Shown here: piece by piece, positions 3,812 through 8,393 of the stretch
Position numbering within the stretch: the first letter of the stretch is position 1
Layout of the letters: every line of letters begins with the position of its first letter
DNA from: Desulfobacteraceae bacterium 4572_35.1
GTDB lineage: Bacteria > Desulfobacterota > Desulfuromonadia > Desulfuromonadales > Desulfuromonadaceae
Length of the DNA: 47,063 bases
Direction of reading: 5' to 3'
NCBI GenBank assembly: GCA_002084705.1
Contig: NBLX01000001.1
Span: 1-47,063, forward strand
Program-made: the position numbers and the translations under genes
The notes under the pieces: model-generated
Database searches by the model: none
Seen by the model: only the letters and a program-made list of their open reading frames with translations
What the model was told of the DNA's origin: nothing

Positions 3812-5077
3812 TTATTTTGTCGGGATAAATTCGTCACTGCTAAAGTTCTGAGTGGCAAAATAATCGGCCATTGTTTCAGCACGGCGGATCAGTTCAACTC
3901 TGCCATCGGTACGTAACAGCAGTTCCTGCGGGCGCAAGCGGCCATTGTATTGAAATCCCATGGCATGTCCGTGGGCACCGGAGTCGTGGATTGCCAGCAG
4001 GTCGCCCTCTTCAATCTTTGGCAGTTGGCGTTGGACGGCGAACTTGTCGTTATTTTCGCATAATGAACCAACTACGTCGTAGGTGGTGTCGGCGGGCTGA
4101 TCCTCTTTTCCGACAACATCAATATGGTGATACGCATCGTACAGAGCCGGGCGCATTAGCGCCGACATGCATGCGTCGACACCAACGTATTGGCGATAGG
4201 TATCTTTAAAGTTGATTGCCTTGGTGATCAGGCAGCCGTGGGGGCCAGTCATGAAGCGACCACTTTCCATATACATGCGTGGTACAAAGCCGTGCTCTTT
4301 TTTGAAGTCGTCAAACAGGGTTGTGATCTCCTGTGCCATGGAATCGATATCCAGAGCTTGCTGTTCAGGTTTGTATGGAATGCCAAAACCGCCGCCGATA
4401 TTGACAAATTCGAATTCAATGTCTAATTTCTGCTTAACCAATTCGGCTAAGGAGAGCACCATGCGTGCAGTTTCTACCATGTAGCTGTAGTCCAACTCGT
4501 TGGAGGCAACCATGGTGTGCAGTCCAAAGCGTTTGGCACCCCGTTGTTGAGCTAGACGATAAGCCTCAACCACTTGTTCGTGAGTTACCCCATATTTGGC
4601 CTCCACCGGGTTGCCGATGATAATATTGCCAGTGCGCCGTGGGCCGGGGTTGTAGCGGAAACAGATCAATTCAGGAAAGTTGGGTACTTTGTTTATCAGT
4701 GAGATATCGTCGAGGTTGAGGATGCAGCCTCCGTCCTGTTCAGCAAAGGCGAACTCTTCGGGACTGGTGTTGTTGGAAGTGAACATGATCTCTTCGCTGG
4801 TCGCACCAAGTTCACGACTCATAACTAGCTCGGGGATGGAACTGCAATCGAAACCGAAACCCATCTCCTTCATGATTTTAAGAATCTGCTTGTTTGGCAA
4901 GGCCTTAACGGCAAAATATTCACGAAAACCATCGATGCCGGAAAAAATTTGTTTCAGGTGGGCTCCGGTGGCGCGAATGCCCTCCTCATCGTAAATATGA
5001 AACGGTGTCCCATAATGTTCTGCTATTTCTGGCAACGCGGTGAAAAGGCGTTGCTTAAACCCTTCTGACATGGGCAT
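3812..5077 (-). CDS. lysA: Diaminopimelate decarboxylase-type PLP decarboxylase
   Basis: FAVKALPN, HTMVASNE, GGGFGIPY, ESGRFMTGPHG, CENNDKFA motifs of fold-III PLP decarboxylases. Confidence 0.9.
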   Translation of the reverse strand: MPMSEGFKQRLFTALPEIAEHYGTPFHIYDEEGIRATGAHLKQIFSGIDGFREYFAVKALPNKQILKIMKEMGFGFDCSSIPELVMSRELGATSEEIMFTSNNTSPEEFAFAEQDGGCILNLDDISLINKVPNFPELICFRYNPGPRRTGNIIIGNPVEAKYGVTHEQVVEAYRLAQQRGAKRFGLHTMVASNELDYSYMVETARMVLSLAELVKQKLDIEFEFVNIGGGFGIPYKPEQQALDIDSMAQEITTLFDDFKKEHGFVPRMYMESGRFMTGPHGCLITKAINFKDTYRQYVGVDACMSALMRPALYDAYHHIDVVGKEDQPADTTYDVVGSLCENNDKFAVQRQLPKIEEGDLLAIHDSGAHGHAMGFQYNGRLRPQELLLRTDGRVELIRRAETMADYFATQNFSSDEFIPTK

Positions 5078-5311
5078 GAATCTGTCTCCTTTTAAGTGCG
5101 GAAATGAATAAAATCAAATAGAACTGTGTGTTTTGTTGTTTTGTGAAACTTGAATTGTAAATAAAATGGGTCATACAGTGCAACTGCTATTTTGTTGATT
5201 ATGGGAGTTGTAACAAATTTTGTTCACAGATGGGGAGTGTTTAAGGTGTTAAATGGGCGCGGGAGATAGAATCCTCCCGCACCGAGATTGTGGGTTTGTG
5301 CAGCTGATTTT

Positions 5312-7703
5312 TTACTTCATGATGACAGAATTCTTGTTGGAGGTGCCACTGCCAGCAGCGATGTTGATGTTTTGACCAAAGCTCAAGGGGCTGTCGATAT
5401 CATTTACGGTAATACCTCTGCCCGATGTGACTGATACGCTGCCACCGACGCTGCTTCCATCTTTGATAATTATTGATCCCGAATTGGCTTCTGCGTGGGA
5501 ACCAAGAGCAAGGTTTACTGCTCCCGATTTAACTTTTGCTGAAAGGTTTCCACGTACTGAGCTATTTTCCACGATCACTGAGCCTAAATTTGCCGTAGCT
5601 TTATGCCCAGCAGCTAAATTAAGTGCGCCACCGGAAACTTTAGTGGTGATGTTGCCTCGTACGTAGCTGCCCCTGATTTTTGTTGTGGCCATGTTGGCTT
5701 CCGATCTATTGCCAACGGCCAAGTTGACGGCCGCACCGGCGACGGTGTTGCGGATATTTCCTTTTACTGTGCTGTTTCTTATGTCGGTAGCAGCCATGTT
5801 GGCGGTAGCTCTGTTGCCTGCTGCTAGGTTTATTGCTCCACCACCGACAGTGTTTTTGATATCACCTTGCACATTACTGTCGGCCATATTAACTGTTGCC
5901 ATATTCGCTTTGACTCTGTTGCCAGCGGCGAGGTTGAGCGCTCCGCCAGCTACCGTATTGGTTATATTTCCTTTGTAGTTGGAGTTTTTGATGCTGACAG
6001 CCGCCTGGTTAGCGGTTGCGCGATTTCCTGCTGCCAAGTTTAGTCCCGCTCCAGCGACAGTATTGATGATATTCCCTTTAACCGTGGAGCCCTTGATGTT
6101 GGTAGCTGCCTGATTAGCTTTAACTCTATTTCCCGCTGCAAGGTTAAGTCCGGCACCGGCAACAGTGTTGAATTAGCTTTAACTCTATTTCCCGCTGCAA
6201 GGTTAAGTCCGGCACCGGCAACAGTGTTGACCATGTTACCTTTAACATTGCCGCCTGATTTGCGCTGGCGCGATTTCCTGCGGCCAGGTTAAGCCCGGCA
6301 CCGCCGACGGTATTGATGATATTCCCCTTAACAGTAGAGCTTTCAATAGTGGCTGCTGCCTGATTGGCTTTTACCCTGTTACCCGCGGCAAGATTGACCC
6401 CTGCGCCGACGAGGGTGTTGACCACGTTTCCTTTAACAGTGCTGCCTTTAAGTGTAGTTGCGGCCTGATTAGCATCAGCTCTGTTGCCCGCCGCGAGGTT
6501 GACGGCGGCGCCGCCAACGGTGTTGATTGCAGCCCCTTGTAAGGTTGAATTTTTGCTACTAAATGCGGCTTGATTAGCTTTGACTCTGTTGCCCGCCGCA
6601 AGGTTTACCGTTCCGCCTATAATTGTATTGACTGCCGCACCTTTTAGTGTTGAGTCCTGCATAGTTGTGCTGGCTTGATTTGCCGTTGCTCTGTTGCCTG
6701 CTGCGAGGTTTACTGCCCCCAACGCGCCGATGGTGTTTACTGCTGCTCCTTTAATGGTGCTTCCTGTGGCGGAGGTGGACGCTTGATTAGCTTTTACCCT
6801 GTTACCCGCAGCGAGATTGAGGAAATTTTGACCAATAGCGGTATTAACCACAGCCCCTGAAACTTTTGAGTCTTGCAAGTTGGTTGCAGCCTGGTTCGCA
6901 GTTGCCCTGTTGCCGGCGGCAATGTTGAGAAGGTTCTGTCCCCCTGCGGTGTTGACGACAGCTCCCTTGACCTTGGAGCTTTCGATATTGATTGCTCCTT
7001 GGCGGGCGTTTACTCTATTGCCAGCCCCGATGTTGAGCAGGTTTTGAGCCGCAACAGTGTTTACCGTAGCGCCTTTAATTTTACTGTCGGAAATTTTGGT
7101 TGTTGCCTGGTCGGCTTCTACCCTGTTGCCGGCACCAATGTTAAGCATGTTTTGAGCTGCGCTGGTGTTGATAACCGCACCGCTTATTTTACTGCTTTCC
7201 ATAATGACTGAAGATTGCCCAGATTTTACCCGATTCCCCGCCGCGATGTTCAGAGCGTTCTTGCCTACGGCGGTGTTGAGAACTGCACCGCTGATATTGC
7301 TGTTTTTGACATTGACTGATGCCTGGTTGGCTGAAACGCGGTTGCCGGCGGCTATGTTGAGGTTGGTGCCGACCATGTTGGTATTGATCACTGCGCCACG
7401 TAGTTTTCCGCCGAGCTTGACAGAACCCTGTGTTGCATCGGCTCGGTTGCCGGCGGCCAGATTCAAACTTTGTTTGTCCATGTTGGTGTTTATAACCACA
7501 CCGGTCATGTTGAGGTTTTTCAGTGAAATGGAGCTCTGGGTGGCGCTGGATTTTTTGCCTACTGCAACGTTGATGTTTTTGTCAATCTTGTTAGGGATGT
7601 TGAGAACTGCTCCCTTTACTGTGGAGCCAGCATAGAGGGTTGAGGTGGGAAAAATAAGTGCGATAAAGATAAACGAACTGACAACCAAGGATGCGATTCT
7701 CAT
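5312..7703 (-). pseudogene. Secreted repeat protein (about 20 x 35-36 aa repeats) split into three frames: 6144-7703, 6040-6234 and 5312-6037
   Basis: Signal peptide MRIASLVVSSFIFIALIFPTSTLYAG, then tandem units such as VKGAVVNTAGGQNLLNIAAGNRATANQAATNLQDSK. Frames change at a deletion near 6246-6252 and at a 59-bp duplication (6113-6230). Confidence 0.85.
6113..6230. repeat. Exact tandem duplication of 59 bp (6113-6171 / 6172-6230)
   Basis: 'attagctttaactctatttcccgctgcaaggttaagtccggcaccggcaacagtgttga' occurs twice back to back; 59 is not divisible by 3. Confidence 0.95.
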
Positions 7704-7823: not shown

Positions 7824-8243
7824 TTAATTTGTTTTTTGTTGGTTGTCCAGTTTGTTAACGATATGGTCAGCAATTTTAAGGATTTCCAGTTCTTGATAGT
7901 TGTAGCGTGAGGTAGAATGATGGTTGCCTATTATCTCGCATATTTTTTTAATTTTTTCAGGTGCCAAGTTTGTGGCGCTCAACATCTTCTTGACCAATGG
8001 CGGGCCGTATTGTTCCTGTGTTTTGCCGGTGTTGTATCCCAGTTCTGCTTCTGATGGTTTAATTCCGACATCATGCAGAATAGCGCTGGCAATTACGATC
8101 TCTTTATCCGCCTGCGGATAATCGTTTAATGTTTCTTCGGCGTGTTTTAATACCTCAATGGCGTGAGTTATGCGCCGATAGTCCTCCTCAAAAAAAATCG
8201 CCATAATTTTTATCAGTTGGCCTTTAAGTCGCTCATTTTCCAT
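7824..8243 (-). CDS. HD-domain phosphohydrolase
   Basis: MENERLKGQLIKIMAIFFEEDYRRITHAIEVLKHAEETL...ASAILHDVG...IIGNHHS...ILKIADHIVN; HD-domain metal-binding pattern. Confidence 0.85.
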   Translation of the reverse strand: MENERLKGQLIKIMAIFFEEDYRRITHAIEVLKHAEETLNDYPQADKEIVIASAILHDVGIKPSEAELGYNTGKTQEQYGPPLVKKMLSATNLAPEKIKKICEIIGNHHSTSRYNYQELEILKIADHIVNKLDNQQKTN

Positions 8244-8393
8244 AGGATTTATGCTTCCTGCTGTTTGGTGGTGTAATTTTCTGTGGCAGTGACCAGTATG
8301 TAGCTTCGCATGTAAGGGCCGAAAAGGTCTATTTTTAGCTGTCCACATTGCAGTTGTTCCATGCAGTTTACTGCTGCTGGGGCGAGTTTATGT

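Follow-up and report, generated by a model that had tools for sequence, protein, structure and literature searches.

A frame-broken tandem-repeat gene of Desulfobacteraceae bacterium 4572_35.1 as a probable orphan subunit of an undescribed CsgG/HfaB-type export system

The stretch of DNA analysed (hereafter the window; 47,063 nucleotides of contig NBLX01000001.1, part of a draft genome that is 87% complete) carries on its minus strand, at positions 5312–7703, a gene for a long repeat protein that is broken in the present assembly. An earlier sequence-only reading had placed the gene at these coordinates, which are correct, and had described a signal peptide followed by about 20 units of 35–36 residues; both features were seen. 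The signal peptide was read by inspection as MRIASLVVSSFIFIALIFPTSTLYAG (residues 1–25; 7629–7703, minus strand). It is followed by 13 tandem units of 35–36 residues each, which form a beta-solenoid in the model described below (6249–7619, minus strand), by further tandem units beyond the break (5504–6169, minus strand) and by a 63-residue C-terminal cap (5312–5503, minus strand), which the alignment also places in operon-encoded long repeat proteins and whose pattern is ..EANSGS..SG.G...ND...P....N.N.A.G..S.KNSV..K.

With 13 units upstream of the break and 6 to 8 downstream, the total is about 21. The unit consensus is close to S.VKGAVVNT..G..NLAAGNR..ANQA.T.I, and the units are spaced by 35 or 36 residues in the first open stretch. 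Self-identity at an offset of 36 was 37.5% over the first 460 residues versus at most 16% in 1000 shuffles, so that the period is not a product of chance. The immediately flanking genes, a decarboxylase-like gene (3812–5077) and an HD-domain-like gene (7824–8348), both named by inspection, are unrelated to the repeat gene, as had been noted. A 10-bp stem-loop without a T-run lies past the stop codon (5256–5283, minus strand; z −4.5); no promoter or terminator rose above chance, and the sigma-54 pattern occurred at chance frequency. Near the contig start, Rfam matched a group II intron (RF00029) at positions 462–531 of the plus strand (42.3 bits; gathering score 40).

The reading frame is lost at a lesion (6113–6250, minus strand) composed of a perfect 59-bp tandem duplication (6113–6230) and a 19-bp shortfall in the adjoining unit, which measures 86 bp versus 105 bp for the others; neither half of the gene reads into the other. 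Such a break had been implied by the earlier mention of a repaired protein of 783 residues. Strong constraint at the protein level is evident in both halves, which differ from the homologue in the related genome G013 by 0.18–0.25 non-synonymous and 0.84–0.87 (saturated) synonymous differences per site. The G013 homologue is itself cut within its repeats, between two contig ends (C31 and C60, corresponding to L019 and L020), and short-read assemblies therefore probably under-count the long repeat gene. As the protein is constrained on either side of the break and the homologue is divided over contig ends, the frame break is most likely an assembly fault in the repeat. It is unlikely, though a chance worth keeping in mind, that the window copy is instead a genuine pseudogene, which would concern this copy rather than the family and would be compatible with the explanation preferred below. 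The sequence does hold two frame-breaking changes; against this reading stand the conserved halves, the division of the G013 gene at a like repeat and the fact that short-read assembly typically produces errors of this kind, a perfect duplication among near-identical 105-bp units.

The first 485 residues of the repeat protein were modelled with AlphaFold2 from 16 input sequences. The best of five models (pLDDT 84.5, pTM 0.83) was a regular all-beta repeat, which we read as a predicted beta-solenoid, and the others ranged down to a pLDDT of 40.9. One unit may make up one layer of the solenoid. The prediction supports the beta-solenoid proposed earlier. A Foldseek search with the model against the PDB and viral libraries returned nothing below 0.001.

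By way of homologues in related genomes, a second and shorter repeat protein was found, encoded beside a lipoprotein, and scanning named genomes with this operon lipoprotein yielded 27 exporter loci from Desulfuromonas, Geomonas, other Desulfobacterota, Nitrospirota and a few bins labelled otherwise. One of them (L041) belongs to Geomonas sp. Red32, which is not a metagenome bin. The usual gene order is the long repeat protein (when present), the short repeat protein, a small secreted protein (in 25 of the 27 loci), the CsgG/HfaB-like lipoprotein, a protein of about 115 residues, an LPP20-family protein (22 of 27), a protein of about 95 residues and a DUF2807 protein. By our count, a repeat protein of this family lies upstream of the exporter in all 22 loci with enough upstream sequence. 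The search for homologues with conserved neighbours, recommended earlier as a check, uncovered a conserved operon that encodes a CsgG-like exporter in related Desulfobacterota and Nitrospirota. Nearly all of the operon repeat proteins keep a unit of 36 residues, and the long forms reach 972 residues. On a Nitrospirae contig, a further repeat-like protein of 241 residues is encoded past the gene for the ~95-residue protein (L033, 4138–4863). No riboswitch was found near the repeat gene or the operon at the Rfam gathering score; c-di-GMP/glycine tandem riboswitches have been reported ahead of csgG-like genes (PMC9481103).

In its N-terminus, its repeat and its C-terminal cap, the window protein matches the operon's long repeat protein. 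Over the last 183 residues, which include the cap, it is 44–49% identical to long repeat proteins whose genes lie immediately upstream of exporters on contigs of Desulfobacterota and Nitrospirota, and 74% identical to the G013 homologue. Since the cap is common to the long form and absent from the short forms, and the alignment finds it in the window protein together with the 36-residue unit, the window gene is assigned to the long subunit. Among 136 genomes of the order, the exporter was found in seven and the full long cap in two, namely the window genome and G013, which match by construction because the long-subunit profile was built with their sequences. A phylum sample contained the exporter in 8 of 396 genomes, and the system is patchy in distribution. 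The long repeat gene lies outside the operon in the window genome and likewise in G013.

The lipobox cysteine is invariant in the exporter lipoproteins. Pfam CsgG matched 10 of 25 members weakly (best E 2.9e-4), the member shown falling short of the curated cut-off, and NCBIfam HfaB matched 16 of 25 (best E 1.3e-4), far under its curated cut-off; sequence profiles of exporter, repeat and cap gave no relevant match in the PDB. The AlphaFold2 model of the exporter comprises an alpha/beta domain and long beta-hairpins, and its best Foldseek match in the PDB was CsgG (6l7c, E 5.8e-10), with all of the top 25 matches being CsgG. The lipobox cysteine and the model indicate an outer-membrane lipoprotein with a predicted CsgG fold, of distant kinship to CsgG itself in view of the modest TM-scores (0.46 for the best match, by target). 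Extra C-terminal regions are present, with weak matches to peptidoglycan-binding or TPR models. Two variants (L034, 7001–8599, and L041, 6941–8596) have 532 and 551 residues, respectively, versus the usual 430–490, and these are probably the two members with TPR matches; at L058 (6935–8301) the exporter gene consists of two overlapping frames, being broken or frameshifted in the assembly. The LPP20 protein shows profile similarity to FlgP-like outer-membrane lipoproteins.

Within the window's own genome, a gene for the LPP20 protein was detected (E 7.7e-129); on contig C92 it begins only 80 bp inside the contig end and has a RecQ-like gene nearby, as in G003. The exporter directly precedes the LPP20 gene in G003 and is placed in the same way in the same-genus genome G009. 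The exporter, the short repeat protein and the small protein were not found in this 87% complete assembly, and C92 stops where the exporter sits in G003 and G009; an assembly gap would account for the three missing genes, which may be present in the genome. The operon is absent from the glnA contig, unlike in G009. The earlier statement that there is no export cluster holds next to the gene and gives a misleading picture of the genome, where the LPP20 gene of the operon lies at a contig end.

The sequence-only reading had noted a resemblance to Fap and curlin repeats; membership of either family is not supported. The repeat protein gave nothing credible in Pfam, NCBIfam or PHROGs, matches to endonuclease V, a biotin carrier and a phage adaptor being sub-cut-off chance matches; a phage or plasmid homologue was not found either. 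The curlin repeat (PF07012) was absent from the repeat protein by Pfam and, like CsgE and CsgF, was found in none of six genomes (the window's own, 87% complete, and five related ones), while the E. coli controls were found. It is highly improbable that the protein is a genuine FapC-type subunit whose fap neighbours have been lost. The published FapC motif resembles the core NVAAG..N of the window repeat (PMC12392863), with a unit of 38–39 residues against 36 here, and with a 242-unit profile the FapC pieces from the PDB ranked 6th, 8th and 12th of 603 sequences including shuffles, profile comparison giving a probability of 49%. However, these pieces score 6.6–7.7 bits and their shuffled versions up to 10.7 bits, and FapC was absent from PDB sequence searches and fold searches with the repeat protein. 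About 21 tandem units without linkers also differ from the usual three with linkers in FapC, and the exporter of the family is CsgG-like rather than a FapF barrel. The likeness to Fap and curlin is real to the eye without establishing membership. A stand-alone, non-polymerising beta-helical adhesin or pentapeptide-like protein is somewhat less improbable, though still quite doubtful. It would suit the solenoid model, and weak pentapeptide-repeat matches occur in 5 of 16 repeat proteins, among them short homologues (best E 3.2e-7); the matches of the short form to PDB pentapeptide proteins (E 4e-9) we judged to be compositional. The window protein has no pentapeptide match, though, and its period of 35–36 residues shows nothing of the A(D/N)LXX units with 20 residues per coil, 36 being no multiple of 5 or 20. 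Pentapeptide folds were not significant in Foldseek, and the linked CsgG-like exporter in 22 of 22 loci argues against a protein acting alone.

The strongest rival, drawn by analogy, is an anchor like HfaABD of the Caulobacter holdfast, in which the repeat proteins would form a short coat tying polysaccharide to the outer membrane, with no long fibres. HfaA resembles CsgA and is amyloid-like, and its export, along with that of HfaD, is attributed to HfaB (PMC6707917). HfaB is also, by member count, the best-scoring named relative of the exporter. Even so, this alternative has only a small chance of being correct, slightly below that of the pseudogene: the HfaB matches fall well short of the cut-off, the scanned operon proteins hold no other holdfast match and come with LPP20 and DUF2807 genes instead, and the long repeat forms of up to 972 residues fit a short coat poorly. 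We consider it probable that the window gene codes, as an orphan copy, for the major (long) subunit of an undescribed CsgG/HfaB-type exported fibre or coat system. Against this explanation stand the lack of exporter, short repeat protein and small protein in the window's own assembly, the position of the gene outside the operon in both the window genome and G013, its broken frame, the spread of the repeat models and their fold without a solved match, the absence of recognised CsgE and CsgF counterparts and the pentapeptide matches. The secreted, functional-amyloid-like beta-solenoid proposed at the outset is supported by the solenoid model and the exporter operon of relatives; an assignment to Fap or curlin is not supported.

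Under the preferred explanation of an exported fibre or coat, the repeat protein would enter the periplasm by the Sec pathway and, still unfolded, cross the outer membrane by way of a ring that the CsgG-like lipoprotein would form. Once outside the cell, each 36-residue unit would fold into beta-strands stacked in a solenoid, and repeat subunits would join at their ends to give a fibre or surface coat, the units probably stacking into a stiff surface fibre. The short repeat protein perhaps starts assembly, as is thought for CsgB or FapB. In the window genome, the long gene would lie apart from the operon, with the remainder of the operon across an assembly gap. Export by the CsgG-like lipoprotein, polymerisation, amyloid character and a role in adhesion or biofilm formation are all putative.

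Like curli (CsgA/CsgB, CsgG, CsgE, CsgF), the system has two repeat subunits bearing signal peptides, encoded in one operon with a CsgG-like outer-membrane lipoprotein, and its subunit is, in the model, a beta-solenoid. Unlike curli, it has units of 36 instead of about 22 residues, no match to the curlin repeat, CsgE or CsgF, extra C-terminal regions in the exporter, and added LPP20 and DUF2807 genes. The Caulobacter HfaA/HfaB/HfaD system shares a CsgG-family protein, HfaB, as the exporter's most frequent named relative and an amyloid-like partner at the surface, whereas the matches are weak and the gene set and repeat architecture differ. With Pseudomonas Fap (FapB/FapC/FapF), the common traits are the NVAAG..N core, a similar unit length and two related repeat subunits; the sequence and fold matches are not significant, and many linker-free units and a CsgG-like exporter set the present system apart.

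To our knowledge, few secreted amyloid systems of bacteria have been worked out in molecular detail. Open-licence literature on CsgG together with LPP20, Geobacter, Desulfuromonas or Desulfobacterota contained no description of the operon system, which would make it a so far undescribed relative of curli export scattered through sulfur- and metal-reducing bacteria. The chances are about even that it represents a separate CsgG-dependent functional amyloid lineage, with a long/short pair of 36-residue solenoid proteins and LPP20, DUF2807 and small secreted proteins, patchily distributed in Desulfobacterota and Nitrospirota, which curli and Fap models fail to detect. If so, the CsgG-family exporter would serve a further, unrelated kind of repeat and would have acquired different fibre partners on more than one occasion, and sediment bacteria would have an additional candidate matrix fibre, with a testable operon gene set in the named strain Geomonas sp. 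Red32.
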